In this document: one piece after another, positions 8,267 through 19,686 of the stretch
Layout of the letters: each line of letters begins with the position of its first letter
Position numbering within the stretch: position 1 is the stretch's first letter
Assembly: GCF_002733835.1 (NCBI RefSeq)
Contig: NZ_NVWY01000032.1
Coordinates: 1-64,000, forward strand
Source of the DNA: Alcanivorax sp.
GTDB taxonomy: Bacteria; Pseudomonadota; Gammaproteobacteria; Pseudomonadales; Alcanivoracaceae
Direction: 5' to 3'
DNA length: 64,000 nucleotides
Made by a program: the position numbers and the translations under genes
The notes under the pieces: model-generated
Databases searched by the model: none
Told to the model about the DNA's origin: nothing
Seen by the model: only the letters and a program-made list of their open reading frames with translations

Positions 8267-10294
8267 TCAAGGCACCAGTGGATCGCAGCCACCGCCGGGG
8301 GCGCCGGCAAAGAACTGCACGGCGCCACGCCCAATGGAAAACAGGAAGGCTTGCTGATCATCGCTAAGCGTTTCACCTTCCGCAAGCGCCTCCCGCCATT
8401 CCTTCGACTGGATAACGGGGTAGAAATCATCAACCCAGGCAGCACGGACCTTGTTATCAAAACCGGTAGAATCATTGGGACCGCCTGTACGATACAGCGG
8501 ATAACAAGCGTCATTCATGTCTACTCGCCCCAGAATAGTGACACCGAAGTTTGCGGCACCACTGTTTTCTGCCCCCGGCGCCAACAGCAAAGTGAGGTTA
8601 GCGCTTCTGTTTGAATTATCAGGATCTTCAAGGGTGCGACTCACAAAGCCCACATCCCACTGGTCGCAATTTCCAAGCGGCCCGGCAGTGACCAGACCAT
8701 TATCCGGATTACCCGCATCACTAACCACCGCGACACAAAACTCCGTGGTATTGTCGACATCGCTTGCCACTCTAGGCATTTCCTCTTCAACAGGAACCAG
8801 AATTTCTGTTGGATAGTTTTCGCTTGCACTATCGCCTATTTCAAATTCCTCATTATCTATAGGACGGCATGTAGACCCGGCCTCATCAATATCCTCTTGT
8901 AAACATGCCCGCATCAAACGAACAGTGAAGGGACCAGCCGCCGACAGATCATTAATATATGCTTGATCAGGAACGACTTGGGGCACGGTAAGCACTTCCG
9001 AAGTGAGAGGCAATTCAACGTCATCGCCGCCCAGCAAGCGGCCTGTCGCCTCACCTTTTTCGGCTTCCTGTAAATCCGGGCTTAATGAGGGATAATCGCG
9101 CTGTATATCATTTTTGGTGTCATCTTCAGCCCGGTCGGGCAGAAAAGCACTATAAATTCGCTTATTGAGAAAGCGTCCTTTGAAACTAATCTGTACATCT
9201 GCCCCGGCCTCGACCGAGAGAACCTCACCATCCAGTTGCAGTGTTTCATCGACAGTCGCATTTTGCGAAAACGCCACAAGGGTGGTGAGTGTTTCCAGGT
9301 CTTCACCCTCACCCTGCGTCTTCACAGCCTTACCCAAGCCCAAAACGCGGCCGTTGGGTAGTATCAAAGGAGGCTCAGCAGTGACTTCCTGCCCATCTAC
9401 AATGGTCCCATCAGGGAAGCGCAAGTCTATACCCACAATAGAGTCCGGAAGCTGATCACAAAACAGCAGCGAAATTTGGCTTCGGCAGGTATCAAAGCGG
9501 TAATTTCCGGCGAAAGAATAACGGTCGGCCTCTAGCACATTTGCCAAGGGAATAGCCGAGCTTGGATTAAGCTGCGCGACACCGCCCGCTACCGCGTCAT
9601 TCACCTCTGCGAAATAACCGTTACCCTCAGCACCATTCCCCCAAGCTGCCAGAAAATCATTATAATCTTCCAGCTCAAAGGTTTCCTGAAGCGCTGTATC
9701 AGTCGACACGTTGCTGTCGCCAACCGCCTGCTCCACTAAAGCTTCAGCCACGTCATGGGCCTCATTCGGAATATTTACAAAAGCCTCATTGGCGGAATCT
9801 GTATCCAGCCCTTGAATGAACGCAGCCACATTTCTCACCTGCGCTGACACCGTGGCTGCTTCCCTTCTAGGTGAAATCACCAAATCAGAAACCGTCACTG
9901 TATAACTTTCCGCCAAGGCGTCGGCAGGGAACACAAGCTCACCCAAAGAAATATAGTGGCCTTCAAATAACGCATCGCCGACCAAAAACTCTACTCCACT
10001 GGTGCCGGCAGGACATAAAGCGTTAAAAGCAGGAATAGTCACTTGCGCACCAGTACTGCTGACGGATTGCTCTTCATCTTGATTGGTGAAATAGACGACA
10101 TTGCTCCCCGTACAGCTATACCCAAGGTTATGCACCCGCGGCCCAACCAGCTCGACCAGCACCTCACCACGGGTATTAGGCTGACAACCAGCACCGGCCG
10201 GGCAACCTGGAATAGTTGCATCAGAGAAATCTTCGCCGCCATTGCAACCGGCCAAACCCATCGATAGTGCTGCCAGAATTAAAATAAATCGCAT
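8267..10294 (-). CDS. Large secreted lipoprotein, FilF-like
   Basis: This 675-residue protein has a lipoprotein signal (MRFILILAALSMGLAGC; lipobox LAGC, lipidated Cys near residue 17), so it is probably anchored in a membrane facing the periplasm or cell surface. The mature part is acidic, rich in Gly, Asn and Asp and has paired cysteines; I see no catalytic motif. Its place at the end of a cluster with an exported DUF6160-type protein, C39-like peptidase, two barrels and another lipoprotein matches the fil gene set of Acinetobacter as I remember it, where the large lipoprotein is FilF. Function there is described only as a putative pilus system. Homology to FilF needs a search. Confidence 0.7.
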   Translation of the reverse strand: MRFILILAALSMGLAGCNGGEDFSDATIPGCPAGAGCQPNTRGEVLVELVGPRVHNLGYSCTGSNVVYFTNQDEEQSVSSTGAQVTIPAFNALCPAGTSGVEFLVGDALFEGHYISLGELVFPADALAESYTVTVSDLVISPRREAATVSAQVRNVAAFIQGLDTDSANEAFVNIPNEAHDVAEALVEQAVGDSNVSTDTALQETFELEDYNDFLAAWGNGAEGNGYFAEVNDAVAGGVAQLNPSSAIPLANVLEADRYSFAGNYRFDTCRSQISLLFCDQLPDSIVGIDLRFPDGTIVDGQEVTAEPPLILPNGRVLGLGKAVKTQGEGEDLETLTTLVAFSQNATVDETLQLDGEVLSVEAGADVQISFKGRFLNKRIYSAFLPDRAEDDTKNDIQRDYPSLSPDLQEAEKGEATGRLLGGDDVELPLTSEVLTVPQVVPDQAYINDLSAAGPFTVRLMRACLQEDIDEAGSTCRPIDNEEFEIGDSASENYPTEILVPVEEEMPRVASDVDNTTEFCVAVVSDAGNPDNGLVTAGPLGNCDQWDVGFVSRTLEDPDNSNRSANLTLLLAPGAENSGAANFGVTILGRVDMNDACYPLYRTGGPNDSTGFDNKVRAAWVDDFYPVIQSKEWREALAEGETLSDDQQAFLFSIGRGAVQFFAGAPGGGCDPLVP

Positions 10295-10334: not shown

Positions 10335-11207
10335 CTATGGTGCAGACAGAACCAGTTCGCCTTCAATTACCTGTTTCAAGCCATCAGAAGCTGGCCGAGC
10401 GTCCAAATAAGGAAGAAAAACAATGAGATAGTGTTGACCCTGTTCACGCTCCAAGGTTCCCTGCAGGTACCCGTAACGATACCATGTTTCCGGGTATTTC
10501 CTGCTAAACGGCTGATCAATCATCATGACCGGCACGCCTTTTGAATTCAGCCATAACAACTCTGCACCCAAATACCCTTTCTTTCTGATAAAGGATACCA
10601 GGGAAACCTCCGACACCTCGTCGGCCGGAGCGAAGGCCACTGCCCGCCATGGCGAATCGCCTTTCAAAACCAGACTTTCACGATCAAACGTCACGACACT
10701 CTCTGCGCCTGGCTCCAGAGGCTTGGCCGTCTCAATAAGATGCATACAGCAATCTGCCCGTAATGCTCTGTAGGTCTCCAAAAACGCGTCCTCGGCAACC
10801 TCTTCATAAGGAGCAGGAGCGTCCTGAGCGGCTTTACGCTCTGCTTTCATATCCAAAGGACGACTGACTAACTGACCCATTTCATCCACATAGGTAATGA
10901 AACGCTCATTCTCTCTTGCCGCCAATTCCTCATCGACTTCTTCACTGGGGCGGTAATCATCAACATCGCTCTGCGAAAACGCTTCGGAGGTCGGGTCGAC
11001 TTTTGAGGTTACAGCTGCGCTCTGCTGGTAGGCCTCTCGTCCACCATTTTTTGGCGCGGCCTTTGTCTCCGCGCGCCGCATTGTTACCAGATTTCCTTGG
11101 GCGTCAGTGTATACGTAAAACCCTTCGCTATTGCTCCTCGTGTTACCAGATTGATTCTGGCAAGCACTCAGCAAAAGCAGCAGAGATAACAGGGCTAATC
11201 GTTGCAT
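10335..11207 (-). CDS. Lipoprotein, FilE-like
   Basis: The start is set at MQRLALLSLLLLLSAC (290 residues) because this gives a clean lipoprotein signal with lipobox LSAC; the frame extends upstream to 11291 without a signal. Two related segments, GFYVYTDAQGNLV near residue 29 and RFITYVDEMGQLVS near 95, look like an internal repeat. A C-terminal domain follows with no motif I recognise. It lies 40 bases before the large lipoprotein gene and 99 after the FadL-like barrel. The arrangement corresponds to FilE in fil clusters; this identification is from gene order and general resemblance. Confidence 0.65.
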   Translation of the reverse strand: MQRLALLSLLLLLSACQNQSGNTRSNSEGFYVYTDAQGNLVTMRRAETKAAPKNGGREAYQQSAAVTSKVDPTSEAFSQSDVDDYRPSEEVDEELAARENERFITYVDEMGQLVSRPLDMKAERKAAQDAPAPYEEVAEDAFLETYRALRADCCMHLIETAKPLEPGAESVVTFDRESLVLKGDSPWRAVAFAPADEVSEVSLVSFIRKKGYLGAELLWLNSKGVPVMMIDQPFSRKYPETWYRYGYLQGTLEREQGQHYLIVFLPYLDARPASDGLKQVIEGELVLSAP

Positions 11208-11305
11208 AGAGTTGCCGGTGGTTATCAGGCTCATCGCCTGCAAACCTCCGCTATAAACATTTCTTACAGCAGATTTTTTGCAAACGAACATTTCTTGCCT
11301 ACAAA

Positions 11306-12973
11306 CTAGAATTTGGTTCGGAACGCCAAGCCGACGATAGTCACCGTCGCTTCAGTCTTGATGTCCAAACCTGCATACGGGTTGTACACAACATTGTCGA
11401 TCCCTGTGCAGTTGGCAGCACAACTCGTGTTAGCAGGGATTTCATCTTTGCTGCGCAGCTGGCCGATACCAAGATCGATATCTGTATCTTTATCCCATTT
11501 ATAACCCAGGCCCAAGCTGTAATAACGTGCTTCATTAATCGGCACCATGGGGCTTCTTCTATCTTCAGGAATTGCTGACGCTCGGGGCTCATAACCTGCC
11601 CTTAACTGAATTCGACCGGTCAAATCATATGCTGCACCAAACGCCAGGTTCCACGTGGACTGGAAATTCAGTGGGTAACTTAACTGTGTAGACGTGGAGC
11701 CAGGCGAAAACAGTCGTGCCAGACTCAGCACCGCAGAACTACGGTCGAAGACGATATTGAATGCGTCCCACTCTTTGTAGTCCGCCCAAACCGCATCGAC
11801 ATTAAGTTGCAGTCGTTCGGTGGGCTTGAATTTGATACCTGTCTGAAAAGTAGCTGGCATGGTTAAATCCATGCTTACCTTGCCCACTTCCTCTTCAGGA
11901 ACGTAGGAGGGAATACCCAATACAGCCAAGGCAATGGCACCGGTTGCCGAGCCACCAATACCATTAATGGTGGAGCGCGCGGCGTTGGAATAGGAAATTT
12001 TGTAATCCCCTTTCATGTGCGTTTTAGCCTCTGAACGCCACACGGCTCCCCATGCAAAGCGATCATTCGGCTCCCACAACACCCCCAGGTTATAGGACGG
12101 ACTGAAACGCTGGTCCATGGAGACATCCAGCGAGGCAAGGTTTTTAAACGGCCCAAGGCCTTCCTCAGGGCGACAAATACCAAAAAGGATCAGGTCGAGC
12201 GCAATATTTGACTCCCCCTGGAAGGGAGCACAGATACTTTCATCAAGAGTTCGTGCAAACCCCAGCAGTTCGTTAGGCGCTCGGAAATCCTGCTCCAGAG
12301 CGATCGCCTGAAAGCTCATGCCGATGGAAGCACCCAGCATAAGCTCATCGTTAACCCGATAGCCCACAGAAGGCGACAGATAGGTGATGCGCTCCAGCGC
12401 CATACGCTCACCCATATAGTTACCCACATCATCTTCATCCCGGTAGAACCCAGCTGCCAGCGGCAAATAGGTTGCGGTACCAAAGGTGAATTTAGAGCCA
12501 GCTGGTCGAATAGAAAATGAAGGAAGCGGCCCGGCAATAAGCGGCCCAGGCGGCAGATCTACCGTATCATTAATAAACGGCACATACAGAGAAATGCCTT
12601 CCACCGTACTGGTTGCAGATTTGAACTCGCGACAGTAATCCACGCCATCATCGGGAGCATCGCTACAGACGATGGGGTCGTCCGAAAACCCAAAAACGTT
12701 ATATCCTGGCGGCGCTGAAAACTCTGACTCCAGCTGAAAATCCGCACCCACGAACTGCAACTCCACACGGCGACCATCCAGCTTCGCCAAGCCAGCCGGA
12801 TTGAAGTGAATGGCCATAATCCCGGGAGGATCAGCGGTAACCGCATGCCCCATACTCATTGCTCTCACATCAAGAGCGATGTTGTTAGCAAGCTGGGCAT
12901 GAGTCAGCCCCACCGCCAAACTGGCAATCAGGCCAAGCAGTTTCACGCCAAGCTGCTTATTGTTCTTTTTCAT
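11306..12973 (-). CDS. FadL/OmpP1-family outer-membrane protein
   Basis: This 555-residue protein has a cleavable signal peptide (ends THA near residue 27). The mature N-terminus is typical of FadL: MSMGHAVTADPPGIMAIHFNPAGLAKLDG. It continues with alternating beta strands and ends in the terminal-Phe motif VGLAFRTKF. FadL proteins pass hydrophobic molecules across the outer membrane. Here it sits in the fil-like cluster, so it may serve that system rather than general fatty-acid uptake. It is longer than E. coli FadL (about 420 mature residues) owing to cysteine-containing loop insertions near residues 90 and 245-270. Confidence 0.85.
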   Translation of the reverse strand: MKKNNKQLGVKLLGLIASLAVGLTHAQLANNIALDVRAMSMGHAVTADPPGIMAIHFNPAGLAKLDGRRVELQFVGADFQLESEFSAPPGYNVFGFSDDPIVCSDAPDDGVDYCREFKSATSTVEGISLYVPFINDTVDLPPGPLIAGPLPSFSIRPAGSKFTFGTATYLPLAAGFYRDEDDVGNYMGERMALERITYLSPSVGYRVNDELMLGASIGMSFQAIALEQDFRAPNELLGFARTLDESICAPFQGESNIALDLILFGICRPEEGLGPFKNLASLDVSMDQRFSPSYNLGVLWEPNDRFAWGAVWRSEAKTHMKGDYKISYSNAARSTINGIGGSATGAIALAVLGIPSYVPEEEVGKVSMDLTMPATFQTGIKFKPTERLQLNVDAVWADYKEWDAFNIVFDRSSAVLSLARLFSPGSTSTQLSYPLNFQSTWNLAFGAAYDLTGRIQLRAGYEPRASAIPEDRRSPMVPINEARYYSLGLGYKWDKDTDIDLGIGQLRSKDEIPANTSCAANCTGIDNVVYNPYAGLDIKTEATVTIVGLAFRTKF

Positions 12974-13003: not shown

Positions 13004-14017
13004 TTAAGCACCTGGCTTCAGGCCTGAGAAATCGATCGGCATAGAAATGCCAAGCAGCACATCTGGGGAGTCTTCGGTTAAACCAAAGCCAAAACTCAAG
13101 TTCACAATGCGGTTGCTGGAAGTACGCAAGCCCAGTGACGTATTCACGACACTGGATGTGGAATCTTCTGACTGAGCGGAATAACTTTCGAAAATAAAAT
13201 TGGTATCGAAATTATACGATTGCTGATAACTCGCGCTCAGGGACACCTCATATGAAAGCGCATACGCAAAGCCCATGGAGAAATTCAGGCTATCGCCCGG
13301 CTGCACTTCGCGCAGAATCTGGTTTCCTCGCAGCTGATTCAACCCGGTGGCGTCAAACGCGTAGGTGTACCCTACAGAGCCGAAAAGCACGACTGGATCA
13401 ATAACTTTACTCGCGCTGACGCCAGCACCCAAAGAGTAATACCCCGAGCCACTCGACACCTCTTCACGCGTATTAATGTCGTAGGGGCTATCCCCTGTTG
13501 GCGTACTCAACGTGGTATACAAAGTGGTATTCATTGCGCCTGGTTTTACCGGAAAGGGCTGATAACGCAAGCTGAATGAAACATCGCCCAGCGCCGCTTG
13601 AGAGACATCTTTCTGGGTATCGTATTTATAGGAGACAGGCAGGCGCGTGTTAAACGTCAGGTTATTCCAGATACCGTAATCAAGGGAAAGAGACGACGAA
13701 AAAGCGTGCTGTGCATCCTGCTCGACCCGGAACCGGCTAATGCTGCCTGAATTTTCATCAATCGCGATATCAATACGATCATCACGATAATAATTGTAAT
13801 TGGCAGAGAAATTGAGCGACATCTGGCCACTTGGCAAAAGCGAGTATTGTTTTTCCGCTGCCTGGAACACCTCTTCCAGGTTTTTTTCCTGCGTGACATC
13901 ATCTTCTTGGGTCTGCAAGGCATCACGTGCTTCTTCCACGCTATCTGCCGCCCAGGCAACATGCTGCAACAACATGAAAGCAGCAGTTGCTGCAACCTTC
14001 CCAGACATCATTTTCAT
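13004..14017 (-). CDS. Outer-membrane beta-barrel protein (transporter-like), FilC-like
   Basis: This 337-residue protein has a signal peptide ending WAADS near residue 24. A short coiled or acidic N-terminal stretch (residues 25-60, EEARDALQTQEDDVTQEKN) is followed by strands rich in alternating aromatic and polar residues (LNFSANYNYYRDDRIDI, LSLDYGIWNNLTFNTRLPVSYKYD). It resembles the small outer-membrane channel or MetA-pathway-like barrels annotated as transporter. It is sandwiched between the C39-like peptidase and the FadL-like gene, with short spacers, suggesting one transcript. Substrate is unknown. Confidence 0.7.
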   Translation of the reverse strand: MKMMSGKVAATAAFMLLQHVAWAADSVEEARDALQTQEDDVTQEKNLEEVFQAAEKQYSLLPSGQMSLNFSANYNYYRDDRIDIAIDENSGSISRFRVEQDAQHAFSSSLSLDYGIWNNLTFNTRLPVSYKYDTQKDVSQAALGDVSFSLRYQPFPVKPGAMNTTLYTTLSTPTGDSPYDINTREEVSSGSGYYSLGAGVSASKVIDPVVLFGSVGYTYAFDATGLNQLRGNQILREVQPGDSLNFSMGFAYALSYEVSLSASYQQSYNFDTNFIFESYSAQSEDSTSSVVNTSLGLRTSSNRIVNLSFGFGLTEDSPDVLLGISMPIDFSGLKPGA

Positions 14018-14060: not shown

Positions 14061-14870
14061 TTATTTGTGGAAGTAGGTTCGCGTCGGCACGTTAATTACG
14101 CGTTTGCTACCGTCGTCTTCTGTGATCTGCACTCTCTCGAGAGTACTGGCCTTGTCTGCCCAGTTTTCTATTGGCGCAGTAAACACTGGAAACACTTCGA
14201 ATGCCCAACGGTTAATGGTTCGTTCATCCATCAGGCGCAGATCATAATCCGTTAACTGGAGCCCATCCTGAGGCTCAAAACCGTTCGGGAACACGATAAA
14301 GAGTACGTTTTGATCCCAGACTTCCTGAAACTTTGTCTCACTGAAACTGATATTCCCCAAAGCAGGATCGGCAACATAGACATGGCCATTCTGATACTTC
14401 TTAAGCACAACGAAATGCTTAAACCCACCATAAGCGATCGGAACAATAGCGGGGTGATCCAGCGTCTTAATATCTGACATTTCGGCTCTAAACCCCCCAC
14501 TAGGGTGGCCCAGTGCTGTCGCCAGACGCTTCATATCAAGAAGGGAAAATCCTCGGCGCTCGACAATCTTATCCGTTTCACCAAATCGCAACAGCCCTTC
14601 CATGATCTGGCGCTCCTGGAACTGGCGTCCAAGATACTGATTAAGCACCGTCGTAAGGGCTGCAGAGCCACAGGAATAGTCATACGCCTGGCGCGTAACA
14701 TTGTGATAACGGAACTCCGATACCGGTTTAACCACGATATCCCGTTCACGTAATGGCACTGGTGTCGTCGGGTGTTCGTAGTAGACCTCCCCTTTCTCGG
14801 GGGGTTCGATCACAACAGACTCATTGGCTGCAAAAAATATCAGCGCCACACCCAGCATGGAAGTCAGCAT
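14061..14870 (-). CDS. Periplasmic C39-like cysteine peptidase, FilB-like
   Basis: This 269-residue protein has an N-terminal signal or anchor (MLTSMLGVALIFFAANES). The core is a C39 peptidase domain: DYSCGSAALTTVLNQYLG (Cys near residue 66), FKHFVVLKK (His near 151) and VYVADPALGNISFS (Asp near 165). The Cys-His-Asp triad is therefore intact. C39 domains normally sit on ABC exporters and cut bacteriocin leaders after a double glycine, but here there is no ABC or membrane-transporter part. The domain is stand-alone and exported. A C-terminal extension of about 80 residues follows. The co-located exported protein at 16778-17632 carries a leader-like motif and is the obvious candidate substrate (inference). 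Confidence 0.82.
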   Translation of the reverse strand: MLTSMLGVALIFFAANESVVIEPPEKGEVYYEHPTTPVPLRERDIVVKPVSEFRYHNVTRQAYDYSCGSAALTTVLNQYLGRQFQERQIMEGLLRFGETDKIVERRGFSLLDMKRLATALGHPSGGFRAEMSDIKTLDHPAIVPIAYGGFKHFVVLKKYQNGHVYVADPALGNISFSETKFQEVWDQNVLFIVFPNGFEPQDGLQLTDYDLRLMDERTINRWAFEVFPVFTAPIENWADKASTLERVQITEDDGSKRVINVPTRTYFHK

Positions 14871-15102
14871 CTATGGCATCCAGCATTATTGTTATTGTTT
14901 GTGTCAAATATGGTCAGACATGTTAACCACGTCACCCAGCACAGGCAACCATGTTAATTCGCCGAAGAAGCAAAGTTGCAAGCTTAGCGGTCATTCCAAG
15001 TGCTCACCACCATCGCAACGTATAAAATCAACAGGTTACAAACCGCCCAAGAACATAAAGACTTCACCCACACTCCCTTCCCCATTGGCAACTTACATTA
15101 GG
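14871..15102. other. Spacer between C39-like gene and sulfotransferase gene
   Basis: About 230 bases, noticeably more A/T-rich than the flanks and without a credible gene. It probably holds the promoter for the five downstream fil-like genes, but I see no clear sigma-70 boxes or operator. Confidence 0.4.
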
Positions 15103-16683
15103 CTACACGGAAAGGTCATACCCATAGCGCTCAGCAGCCGCTTTGAATTGTGGCAATACAGGCTCCAGCCATGGAGCGTAATGCCTCCAGCGGCCAACTG
15201 AATCGGTGTAAATTTTCTGGGTCACCCCGCCATAGCTGGGCGTGGCCAGGGTTTTTCTTTGTTTCGCATGCAGGTCAAAATCCAGAACAGCGTCATCCCA
15301 CGGTAGACCGAGGAAAGACAGTATCTTTTTTGCCTCTGCACCCAAGTCCGCCACCACATCCTCATAGCGAATTGTGTGCATACGCTCGGACAAGGCAAAG
15401 ACATCCTCATATTGCCAAAGCAAGCTCATGACATTTCTGTAAAATGTCGCCGCCGCCTCCAGATCCACAAAATTGGCCATGGACTCATTCATCTGAAAGG
15501 ACTGCATGTAACCACTAAGCACGCTGTCGCAAGGGTGGCGTACGGCAACAATAAATTTGGCCTTCGGAAACAAGCGAAGAATCAAGCCGATTTCCACTGA
15601 ATTCAGCGGCATTTTATCGATTAGCAATTTCCGCTTGTCTCGCCGCAGCCGCTCGCTTACCACCTGAAAATAGGTGCTACGAAGCGCTTTAATCTGGCTT
15701 TCTGGCAAATTGCTCATATAGCGAAAACCGGCAAGCCATTGCTCTTTCCAGCCCTGGGACTCATTCATGGCACCATCCTTTATGGCCGAAGCATTTAGCC
15801 ATGGGATCAACGCCTGCATCACTCTCGCTGTCGTTGGTGGCTCTTCCAGCGCCTGAATGCCTGCATGAGCGTCCAGCACCTGCTCCAGCAATGTGGTTCC
15901 CGAGCGAGGAAAGCCAACCAGAAATACTGGCTCATTATCCGTAAAATAATGCTCCCATTGCGCGACCCACTCCTTGTCGTAAAGCGAGCGATACACCTCA
16001 ATCCGCCTTCGCAGCGGATTCTCGGCAATATTTTGGGTCTTGGCCAGGATGCTGTTGGCACGCTTGAAGGCGGCAAACGCCTCCTCATAACGGCCCAATG
16101 CATCCAGTGCCTTGCCCACTACTTTCCAGGCACTGGCCACGTATTGATCCTCTGGCAAGGATTGCAGCACTGGCTCGATGGTCTCAATCACCGCTTGGCG
16201 GTCCTTGAGTTGCAGCAATACCGTCGCCCTGAGATACCAATGCCGCGAATTCCCTGACACCGCTTCCAGCTCAGCCTGGTGATCCAGCGCCTGCATCGCC
16301 TCCTCCGGTCTCAGCAAACGCTCAAGCGCTTCCGCTTTGGCCAGCCAAACCCAGGCCATGGAAGCCGGCGACAATTTCTCGATCTTGTTAAGTGCCACCA
16401 AGGCATCCGACCAGCGCGCCGAAGCACGAAACAGCTTGTAACGCAGCTCCCAACCCTGCCATTCGCCGCTCCTGTGTTTTATCACACGGTCAACCAAGGG
16501 CTTAACCAAACTGGCGCTATCCTTTGCGAGTGCCACATCCAATACGGTGTGCAGGCAGCCATAATCCCAAACGCCTTTTCCCGCCAAGGCTGTCAGCAGC
16601 TCAACGGCCCTCACAAGCTGCCCAGCCCGGCAGAGCTGTGCAACCTGCCCGCGTAACTGTTCTACCGTTATCCTTTTCTGCAT
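15103..16683 (-). CDS. TPR-sulfotransferase fusion protein
   Basis: A 526-residue protein in two parts. Residues about 1-240 are helical TPR-like repeats (for example ALDALGRYEEAFAAFKRAN near 190). Residues about 250-526 form a PAPS-dependent sulfotransferase domain with the 5'-phosphosulfate loop FLVGFPRSGTTLLEQVLDAH (near 256) and the 3'-phosphate site VRHPCDSVLSGYMQSF (near 381). Such proteins transfer sulfate from PAPS to proteins or small molecules and act in the cytoplasm. It lies between the exported DUF6160-type gene and the C39-like gene on the same strand, so it may modify a component of that system; this is inference from position. No signal peptide is visible. Confidence 0.85.
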   Translation of the reverse strand: MQKRITVEQLRGQVAQLCRAGQLVRAVELLTALAGKGVWDYGCLHTVLDVALAKDSASLVKPLVDRVIKHRSGEWQGWELRYKLFRASARWSDALVALNKIEKLSPASMAWVWLAKAEALERLLRPEEAMQALDHQAELEAVSGNSRHWYLRATVLLQLKDRQAVIETIEPVLQSLPEDQYVASAWKVVGKALDALGRYEEAFAAFKRANSILAKTQNIAENPLRRRIEVYRSLYDKEWVAQWEHYFTDNEPVFLVGFPRSGTTLLEQVLDAHAGIQALEEPPTTARVMQALIPWLNASAIKDGAMNESQGWKEQWLAGFRYMSNLPESQIKALRSTYFQVVSERLRRDKRKLLIDKMPLNSVEIGLILRLFPKAKFIVAVRHPCDSVLSGYMQSFQMNESMANFVDLEAAATFYRNVMSLLWQYEDVFALSERMHTIRYEDVVADLGAEAKKILSFLGLPWDDAVLDFDLHAKQRKTLATPSYGGVTQKIYTDSVGRWRHYAPWLEPVLPQFKAAAERYGYDLSV

Positions 16684-16717
16684 TCAACGACGCCTATAGA
16701 TCAGCCTTCTTCGAAAC

Positions 16718-16748
16718 AAAAAAATACCCGGGCAAGCCCGGGTATTTT
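16718..16748. terminator. Bidirectional-looking intrinsic terminator after the DUF6160-type gene
   Basis: A GC-rich palindrome (AAATACCCGGG, short loop, CCCGGGTATTT) is flanked by A and T runs. It lies 30 bases beyond the stop of the exported protein gene. The abundant structural-type gene is thus probably transcribed mostly alone, with partial read-through into the sulfotransferase gene. Confidence 0.8.
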
Positions 16749-16777
16749 TCAACTCGCAACCGAAGTTGCAGCCATTA

Positions 16778-17632
16778 TTAGTGACCAGAGATAGCCACCG
16801 TAGTACCAGCAAGGTCAAGACCGGTCAGGTACACGTTCCCCAGAGGATTCTCCCCCGGTTGCCCCACGCCGTTATCACCCAAAGTTAGGCGAGAAATATC
16901 CACACCCACATTGGTAGCACCGTCACCCACGGTCAGCAGAAGACCGGCGGCATTCAGGTTAGCAGTAGTGACATTGGTGCCTGCACCAGCCCCAAGATCC
17001 AAGTTGGTAACCGCAATTGTTTCTGCACCAATCCAGCCAGCATTACTGGTGCCACCAAACAACTGCACATCGCTCAGTTCCACCCCTACAACACCGGTCA
17101 GTTCCAAGAAGTTGGAGGAGCCAGCAGCTGGAGTGCCTGCATCAGGACCCAATTGCATAATCAGATCGGAGGCCGCCAGCGTCACTGTGCCTACGGACAG
17201 CACTGTAGTGGAATCGCCAATCAAGCCAAGACGACCCGCATCGGCAGATTCCCCAGCAGTTGCGGAAGAGCCTTGAACACCGATTTCCAAGTTGGTCAGC
17301 GTAATATCATTCGGAATGCCAATGGCAACCTGAAGCACACCAGTGTTAGCACCAGCTGCACCGCCAGTACTACCAGCATCAATATCAATGGTAACGTTGT
17401 TCAGGTTAACGCCCAAACCCTCAATCGTCATGAAACCAGCAGGACCAGTGCCATCAAGACCATCGGTATCTTCAATCCACACATCAGTGCTGATGCTACC
17501 ATTGATTTCCATGCTGATACCGTCCTGACCAGTCACGCTGGACAGGGCTTCATCCTGCATCGGCTCGAGAGCCAGGGCGCTCATCGGCGCGACGGCTACG
17601 GCAGCAGCCAGAGCAAGTTTCTTGAAATTCAT
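16778..17632 (-). CDS. Exported DUF6160-type protein, FilA-like
   Basis: This 284-residue protein has a Sec signal (MNFKKLALAAAVAVAPMSALA, cleavage near residue 21). It is followed at once by LEPMQDEALSSVTGQDGIS, the conserved N-terminal segment of DUF6160 or FilA-like proteins. The rest is Gly-, Ala-, Asn- and Thr-rich with recurring strand-like units (ITLTNLEIGVQ, VELSDVQLFGG, AVTNLDLGAG), suggesting a repetitive beta structure such as a fibre or surface layer protein; there is no cysteine. The gene has a strong GGAG site, its own long upstream region and its own terminator, all consistent with high expression. The ALSSVTG motif resembles the end of double-glycine leaders; see findings. Confidence 0.78.
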   Translation of the reverse strand: MNFKKLALAAAVAVAPMSALALEPMQDEALSSVTGQDGISMEINGSISTDVWIEDTDGLDGTGPAGFMTIEGLGVNLNNVTIDIDAGSTGGAAGANTGVLQVAIGIPNDITLTNLEIGVQGSSATAGESADAGRLGLIGDSTTVLSVGTVTLAASDLIMQLGPDAGTPAAGSSNFLELTGVVGVELSDVQLFGGTSNAGWIGAETIAVTNLDLGAGAGTNVTTANLNAAGLLLTVGDGATNVGVDISRLTLGDNGVGQPGENPLGNVYLTGLDLAGTTVAISGH

Positions 17633-19145: not shown

Positions 19146-19224
19146 GCATTTGTCTGGACCCACCGGCACGCAGAATAGCGCCAGTCCCGCCCCAACACTG
19201 AACCTCGCATGTCAACCTTGCACC

Positions 19225-19686
19225 ATGAAACCTTACTATCAAGGCAAAGCATTGCGACATGGCCGTTATAGCGCTGCTGGCAATGTGTATATGATTACTG
19301 CCGTAACAGCGTGTCGCCACCCTGTATTTGCTGATTTTCTGCACGGACGGAGTGCCATCAAAGCCATCCGCGATAGCGACAGGCGGGGCTTCTCGACGAC
19401 CTATGCGTTTGTGGTGATGCCCGACCATCTTCATTGGCTGTTTCAGCTTGAAGCAGAAGAAACGTTATCCAGGGTCGTACAGCGAGTTAAGTCTCAGACG
19501 ACACGAGAAATCCGGCGACAACCAGGCACAGTGGTTCAGGTCTGGCAGGCGGGTTTCCATGATCATGCCATGCGGGATGAAGACAGCCTGATTCAGGCAG
19601 CCCGCTATATCGTGGCTAATCCGTTAAGGGTCGGGCTATGTCGCAGTGTTCGTGATTATCCGCATTGGGATTGTATTTGGATGTAG
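19225..19686 (+). CDS. REP-associated tyrosine transposase (RAYT)
   Basis: Start chosen at MKPYYQGKALRHGRYSAAG (153 residues); the frame is open upstream to 19150 without a good start. This is an IS200/IS605-like Y1 transposase of the REP-associated group. The HUH metal motif is DHLHWLF (near residue 73), and the presumed catalytic Tyr lies in ARYIVANPLRVGL (near 131), a family hallmark. RAYTs are domesticated single-copy enzymes thought to move REP palindromes. Flanking REP units on both sides match those elsewhere in the window, so this protein is the probable source of all of them. It looks intact. Confidence 0.93.
   Translation: MKPYYQGKALRHGRYSAAGNVYMITAVTACRHPVFADFLHGRSAIKAIRDSDRRGFSTTYAFVVMPDHLHWLFQLEAEETLSRVVQRVKSQTTREIRRQPGTVVQVWQAGFHDHAMRDEDSLIQAARYIVANPLRVGLCRSVRDYPHWDCIWM

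Follow-up and report, generated by a model that had tools for sequence, protein, structure and literature searches.

How are exported proteins matured where a peptidase of family C39 stands alone, outside any exporter? C39 peptidases are the leader-cutting heads of ATP-binding cassette (ABC) exporters and work on the cytoplasmic side. The question is raised by the fil cluster of an Alcanivorax sp., which lies, all on the minus strand, in positions 1 to 64,000 of contig NZ_NVWY01000032.1 (the window, 64,000 nucleotides) and encodes a stand-alone C39 peptidase, FilB, and an exported protein, FilA (Table 1). It is quite likely that FilA and other exported proteins carry two leaders in tandem, the second of which is removed in trans by the periplasm-facing FilB. 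The two-leader system is considered real and probably functional.

The 284-residue open reading frame at 16778-17632 (FilA) begins with MNFKKLALAAAVAVAPMSALA, a Sec signal with ALA at residues 19-21, followed by LEPMQDEALSSVTGQ and then DGIS...; residues 22-38 read LEPMQDEALSSVTGQDG. The Sec signal ending in ALA at residue 21 and the leader-like segment behind it had been proposed in an initial annotation of this DNA, and both are confirmed. FilA scores 51 bits to DUF6160 (PF19657), for which the gathering cut-off is 27. In an alignment of 20 FilA orthologues (alignment A3) T34, G35 and G38 are common to all and Q36 is nearly always present. The post-signal motif recurs in further proteins of the same genome, and because of this recurrence, together with a DUF6160 match in 60 of 60 FilB-positive genomes, it is regarded as beyond chance.

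In leaders cut by C39 enzymes, pockets of the peptidase LahT take up the hydrophobic side chains that a helical leader presents at -4, -7 and -12, and the cut follows GG, GA or GS (PMC10885120). When Q36 of FilA is placed at -1, M25 falls at -12, L30 at -7, V33 at -4 and G35 at -2. The hydrophobic residues at -12, -7 and -4 and the glycine at -2 are found in FilA and in 30 tagged proteins of two other genomes, the latter partly selected for these positions. The Gly, Ala or Ser of double-glycine leaders at -1 is replaced by Gln in FilA and in 29 of the 30 tagged proteins, and by Glu in one. Since the hydrophobic positions and the Gly at -2 match the canonical C39 register, FilA would most likely be cut after GQ, the exact bond being a prediction from the register, rather than after TG as first annotated; a cut after TG is less likely, since it would move the hydrophobic residues to -11, -6 and -3. 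The structure model of FilA (mean predicted local distance difference test, pLDDT, 70.7) has a short helix at residues 28-34, in blocks of pLDDT 49-65 (low confidence), and beta strands from residue 38. A comparison of this model with the PDB gave zero matches at E <= 0.001.

FilB matches PF03412 with 70.7 bits (cut-off 22, E 1.4e-19) and the FilB model NF050078 with 300 bits (cut-off 475, E 1.3e-89). The catalytic residues Q61, C67, H152 and D168 do not vary among the 13 FilB proteins aligned (alignment A2). Models of peptidase-ABC proteins match only the peptidase part, and the 269-residue open reading frame contains no fused ABC exporter, so FilB is not a peptidase-containing ABC transporter. 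Also, none of the ABC transporter models scored over its cut-off in the 7 cluster proteins scanned; the intact catalytic residues and the lack of an ABC exporter in the cluster thus stand as first described. The AlphaFold2 model of FilB has a mean pLDDT of 68.0, higher in the core, and the Foldseek matches of this model (PCAT1, E 2e-8; ComA, 5e-8; the protease-leader complex 6mpz, 1e-6) identify the C39 fold. The protein had been annotated as signal-bearing. It does begin with a short, uncharged hydrophobic helix (residues 2-16), but this helix has no A-x-A site and may therefore serve to anchor FilB in the inner membrane instead of being cleaved off as a signal. By eye, the N-terminus of the FilB at locus L071 of genome G221 is more like a cleaved signal. 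The closest named relative of FilB, 92% identical, comes from a metagenome-assembled genome of the Alcanivoracaceae. FilB scores 121.1 bits to the FapD model NF058616, under the curated cut-off of 330, and FilC scores 70 bits to the FapF model (cut-off 700); judged by sequence, FilB is a homologue of FapD and FilC of FapF.

The bodies carried behind the leader are diverse. Genomes G121 and G221 each hold 15 tagged proteins, mostly unlinked to filB. The bodies behind the leader are similar (BLASTP E <= 1e-3) in 7 of 105 pairs in G121 and in 5 of 105 in G221, and the mean leader identity is 0.48 and 0.47, respectively. In 29 of these 30 proteins the stretch running from the A-x-A site to GQ has 16 residues. 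Several positions that the search pattern left free are conserved: of the 30 proteins, 22 have D at -10, 18 have E at -8, 29 have L or M at -15, 29 have Q at -1 and 24 have A or G at +1. The columns at -12, -10, -4, -2 and -1 hold 3-4 bits of information. In the genome of the window, a DUF6160 search finds further tagged proteins on contig C63, unlinked to fil. Here four large neighbouring exported proteins (L007, 62000-79035; 9053-15639) read, after the signal, QKMQDSELADVTGQ, EALEEQEMGAITGQ, VEMEEEQMANVTGA and TAMSDDSMSEVSGR; one of them is the DUF6160 match L005 (E 0.34), and no C39 match was found near the four. The match L006 (E 1.1) is by eye a FadL-like protein and was taken as chance.

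The C63 tagged cluster adjoins genes that by eye are desaturase-like, radical S-adenosylmethionine-like and glycosyltransferase-like, and an IS3-like transposase fragment lies at the contig end. The other C39-like protein of this genome (L010, contig C51, 970-2378) belongs to a different system, being a lipoprotein with PF13529/C39 and tetratricopeptide repeats (TPR). Its neighbour is a small exported DUF6627 protein, and the two may be another pair of peptidase and substrate.

The distribution of the tag was compared with that of FilB in four overlapping samples (class, 276 genomes; order, 215; one genus, 199; own family, 41), which comprise 713 distinct genomes by handle. A C39 protein counted as FilB-type if it scored at least 170 bits to NF050078; this threshold was chosen once a clear score gap had been seen. 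With all samples pooled, FilB-type C39 proteins occur in 60 genomes and all 60 have a DUF6160 match, which is found in 3 of the 653 others. In the class sample, DUF6160 (E <= 1e-3) and FilB-type C39 (at least 211 bits, the next score being 130) are present in the identical 6 genomes, one of which (G008) has DUF6160 matches only under the Pfam cut-off. In the order sample, FilB-type C39 (at least 174 bits, next 125) occurs in 29 genomes, and DUF6160 over the cut-off in the identical 29. In the single genus (family f3, the source of the fap operons L126-L129 described below) both occur in the identical 8; 144 other genomes of this sample have only lower-scoring C39 proteins (mostly 92-114 bits among the matches listed) and none has DUF6160. 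In the own family FilB is present in 26 genomes, all with DUF6160, and DUF6160 in 28. No DUF6160 match over the cut-off was found in genomes with only FapD-type or ABC-linked C39 matches. Among 14 control genomes DUF6160 was detected at E <= 1e-3 in none, and at E <= 10 in 4, none over the cut-off. Simple common descent is unlikely to explain this distribution, because the contrasts hold within a genus and within a family.

The initial annotation had asked whether the motif is conserved only where a C39 gene is adjacent. Taken literally this test fails, given the 15 mostly unlinked tags in each of G121 and G221 and the four on another contig of the own genome; the co-occurrence that it proposed to check holds at the level of the genome. 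Around 80 named FilB loci, a tagged open reading frame on the FilB strand is found in 46 by at least one of two patterns, and in 34 neither pattern finds a tagged gene within ~6 kb. Marinobacter accounts for 22 of these 34. In G442 the gene order of the fil locus is as in Marinobacter, and DUF6160 proteins are encoded elsewhere in the genome. The first pattern, which needed V, I or L at -4, was too strict and missed A and T variants; by eye, L162 among the 46 is spurious, and L155, which neither pattern picked up, has LEDEAMSEMTGQ. Strict adjacency of tag and C39 gene is ruled out by the unlinked tagged genes and the 34 pattern-negative loci: the tag accompanies FilB genome-wide, not by adjacency.

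A stand-alone periplasmic C39 peptidase was held to be an unusual route when the cluster was first annotated, yet one had already been demonstrated in 2017, namely FapD of the Fap amyloid system (PMC5557850). The FapD mutant C38A abolishes secretion of FapC (PMC5557850; PMC6173800). The target of FapD was reported as unknown or unclear, and the Fap proteins were said to be without canonical C39 sites (PMC5557850). FapE was described as the sole Fap protein without N-terminal peptides (PMC5557850; PMC6173800). In the fap operons L126-L129 the gene beside fapD reads, after the signal, LKDQELATLRGR, LKDAEMADLRGR, LKDQELAQLRGK and LKDQELAQLRGK, respectively. The motif keeps to the canonical register, R standing at -3 and R or K at -1, and FapE of Pseudomonas fap operons has the post-signal motif LKDxE[LM]AxLRG[RK]. 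The neighbour in L128, the only one of the four scanned, is identified as FapE by its model score of 347 bits (cut-off 250).

Leader-like segments are also enriched beside FapD-type enzymes in a wider set of loci. In 50 non-FilB stand-alone C39 loci (35 of the class and 15 of the order sample, part of all hits) 34 of 170 exported genes nearby carry the canonical leader pattern, against 2 of 163 far away or on the opposite strand (p 4e-9; shuffled expectation 2.4). The pattern LxxxxLxxxRG occurs in 28 of 170 and 1 of 163, respectively. A single gene of L132 is one of the two far canonical hits and the sole far LxxxxLxxxRG hit, and it has a second FapD copy next to it. With a scoring matrix built from the 29 Fil tags alone, 13 of 117 near and 0 of 95 far genes reached at least 8 bits (first 35 loci). 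When 10 pattern-bearing FapD neighbours were scanned, 5 were FapE-like over most of their length, 1 had a weak FapE match around the leader only and 4 had none. Some C39 genes were called on the wrong strand by the simple gene caller, and a caller based on codon usage repaired most of them; L078, L088, L095, L101, L105 and perhaps L097 and L098 are still wrong or empty, so the 50-locus counts are probably low.

Further features were seen at these loci. In L139 (9311-10476) two small exported proteins beside a FapD-type C39 have another type of leader, LTSAQMDGVSAG and LSAPQLDAVTAG, in the canonical register with AG at -2/-1. FapA of L126-L129 contains LSDxDFxxVxSG, a motif in leader register provided that cleavage is after SG, and may be a second FapD substrate. 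Small exported neighbours in the FapD-type loci L133, L136 and L137 have PMSADQLADSSGRQG-like motifs, between the Fil and FapE leader types. In L132 and L133 whole FapD-type units are tandemly duplicated together with their neighbours.

Several points weigh against removal of a second leader by FilB or FapD. Cleavage, its exact bond and site, the order of events and the role of the leader before removal are what we infer from sequence patterns and co-occurrence. The residue at -1 is Q, or R, K or G in the FapE type, in place of the G, A or S usual for C39 leaders. The tagged proteins were found through the DUF6160 model and a pattern that fixes -12, -7, -4 and -2, so that several positions are conserved by selection. 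The co-occurrence counts ignore phylogenetic kinship. G690 (93% complete) and G711 (96%) have DUF6160 over the cut-off, no FilB and no good FilD, the absence of FilB being either an assembly gap or a real loss. In the order sample G324 has a DUF6160 match of 25.3 bits, under the cut-off, and no FilB; this protein has no leader pattern, and the match was rejected by eye as chance. The 34 FilB loci without a tagged neighbour belong here too, and a near hit is present in only 22 (canonical) to 26 (LxxxxLxxxRG) of the 50 FapD-type loci. Moreover, FapC has been drawn as the target of FapD (PMC10638192).

The Gln at -1 would also suit a docking element, an amphipathic segment that FilB or another fil component binds as a chaperone without cutting it, as is the case for peptidase-dead C39-like domains in some type 1 secretion systems; that some C39-like domains work without proteolysis is on record (PMC5557850, PMC6173800). 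This seems unlikely, the catalytic Q, C, H and D being invariant in all 13 FilB proteins and FapC secretion being lost in the FapD C38A mutant (PMC5557850). Slightly less likely still is that FilB cuts some other target, for example a linker of FilC, with the second leader removed by another protease or never, and that tag and FilB travel together as parts of fil. Co-occurrence by itself names no substrate, and FapF was considered a possible FapD target by Rouse et al. (PMC5557850). However, most tagged proteins of G121, G221 and the own genome are encoded away from fil and have no relation to FilA, yet they track FilB, and the register of the tag is the one read by C39 enzymes (PMC10885120). 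It is very improbable that DUF6160 is no more than an N-terminal domain shared by descent within one family and passed on together with the fil cluster, with no trans-acting signal. The similarity of FilA orthologues beyond the leader (alignment A3) and the homology to FapE that 5 of the 10 FapD neighbours tested show over most of their length are what such a family would give, but 98 of 105 tagged pairs in G121 and 100 of 105 in G221 have no similarity behind the leader, and column information drops from 3-4 bits at key leader positions to ~0.5-0.8 bits past +4. The pairing of a second, double-glycine-like leader behind the Sec signal with a stand-alone C39, as first suggested, is strongly supported by co-occurrence (60/60 against 3/653), while cleavage and the sequence of steps stay at the level of prediction.

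In the two-leader reading, the pre-proteins would be exported by Sec and the first leader taken off by signal peptidase. The second leader, of ~15-16 residues and double-glycine type (hydrophobic at -12, acidic at -10, often E at -8, L or M at -7, V or I at -4, G at -2 and usually Q at -1), would then be bound in trans by FilB, which would face the periplasm, is probably anchored in the inner membrane and would remove it, most likely after GQ. The mature proteins would be assembled or handed on to the outer membrane, in the case of FilA probably by way of the FilC and FilD barrels. One may speculate that the leader holds subunits back from early assembly or guides them to FilB. FapD and FapE of the Fap amyloid system would be a sister case, with the leader LxDxELxxLRG. 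We lean, with less assurance, towards the wider view that two-leader export is a general, unrecognised N-terminal sorting route, in which C39 peptidases that stand alone and face the periplasm (FilB, FapD and relatives) would each process a group of Sec-exported proteins bearing a second double-glycine-type leader. FapE would then be a substrate of FapD, cut at LxDxELxxLRG, and one FilB would act in trans on as many as 15 or more unrelated proteins, by a logic like that of exosortase and rhombosortase tags but at the N-terminus.

Table 1. Features of the fil cluster in the window, with the evidence for each.
Feature	Position	Strand	Description	Evidence
filA	16778..17632	-	284 aa exported protein, DUF6160, homologue of Fil fimbria subunit	PF19657 51 bits; NF050077 E 7e-32
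FilA residues 1-21	17570..17632	-	Sec signal ending ALA	by eye from translation; model helix 2-13 + 15-19
FilA residues 22-36	17525..17569	-	LEPMQDEALSSVTGQ, predicted second leader	register by inspection; column profile of 30 tagged proteins from two other genomes; low-confidence model helix 28-34
FilA residues 37-284	16781..17524	-	predicted mature beta-rich body	model mean pLDDT 70.7
TPR-sulfotransferase gene	15103..16683	-	526 aa, between filA and filB	PF13469 E 3e-43
filB	14061..14870	-	stand-alone C39 peptidase, 269 aa, N-terminal hydrophobic helix	PF03412; NF050078; alignment A2; C39 fold
filC	13004..14017	-	outer-membrane barrel, distant relative of FapF	NF050079 E 8e-109; FapF NF058560 E 1e-19; both under cut-off
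filD	11306..12973	-	OmpP1/FadL-family barrel	PF03349 E 7e-67; NF050080 E 2e-233, under cut-off
lipoprotein, filE position	10335..11291	-	LSAC by eye	sub-threshold MalM match only
lipoprotein, filF position	8267..10294	-	LAGC by eye, 675 aa	translation; no family match
terminator-like hairpin	16720..16749	.	TACCCGGG-CAAG-CCCGGGTA, flanking A and T runs, just past filA	by eye

Homologues of FilA to FilD lie in one cluster and in the order of the NCBIfam models (E 7e-32, 1e-89, 8e-109 and 2e-233). The matches span the length of the proteins and fall under the curated NCBIfam cut-offs (FilA 110.9 of 220 bits, FilB 300 of 475, FilC 365 of 630 and FilD 775 of 970). The genes filA and filB are ~3.1 kb apart also in the nearest relative (L146) and closer in other relatives. 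The hairpin past filA is absent from the output of the terminator scan, and a promoter scan found none. An IS200-like Y1 transposase (PF01797) is encoded at 19150-19686 of the window; it is perhaps a REP-associated transposase.

With these leaders, concrete substrates and sites can be predicted for FapD and FilB. DUF6160, so far a family of unknown function, becomes a likely tag for processing, and predictions follow for how Fil fimbriae and many uncharacterised exported proteins mature. Searches of the openly licensed PubMed Central (PMC) literature yielded no paper that treats DUF6160 as a leader or deals with substrates of FilB, and none on the use of C39 leaders after Sec export, in trans, on unrelated proteins or on FapE. 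The logic of C39 leaders is already known; what appears to be new, judged by these searches, is its use after Sec export, in trans and on unrelated proteins, with a likely extension to FapE.

Among known systems, exosortase/PEP-CTERM and rhombosortase/GlyGly-CTERM have a short common sorting tag on many unrelated proteins, which co-occurs with one processing enzyme. The Fil tag differs in being N-terminal, behind a Sec signal, and in that its enzyme is a C39 cysteine peptidase. FilB and the tag resemble PCAT1, ComA and LahT in the C39 fold and catalytic residues and in the short, putatively helical leader with hydrophobic residues at -4, -7 and -12, and LahT also acts on many precursors with one leader and diverse cores (PMC10885120). 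In contrast to these, Fil has no ABC transporter, the substrate is moved by Sec, the substrates are large proteins, -1 is mostly Gln, and cleavage by FilB would take place on the outer side of the inner membrane. The Fil fimbriae of Acinetobacter (FilA-FilF) have been described in Acinetobacter sp. Tol 5, where the FilA band was identified by Edman degradation (PMC3498257, citing Hori et al. 2011) and FilA is called the Fil pilus subunit (PMC11784438). The window has homologous FilA, FilB, FilC and FilD with the order kept, but differs by the inserted sulfotransferase gene, by NCBIfam scores under the cut-offs and by lipoproteins without a family match at the FilE and FilF positions. The Fap amyloid system of Pseudomonas, with its FapD/FapE pair, like Fil combines a stand-alone periplasmic C39 with a FapF-type barrel, and its FapE has a leader in the canonical register after the Sec signal. 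The Fil tag ends in GQ and the FapE type in RG[RKG], and FilB genomes, unlike the Fap case, may hold many unlinked tagged proteins.

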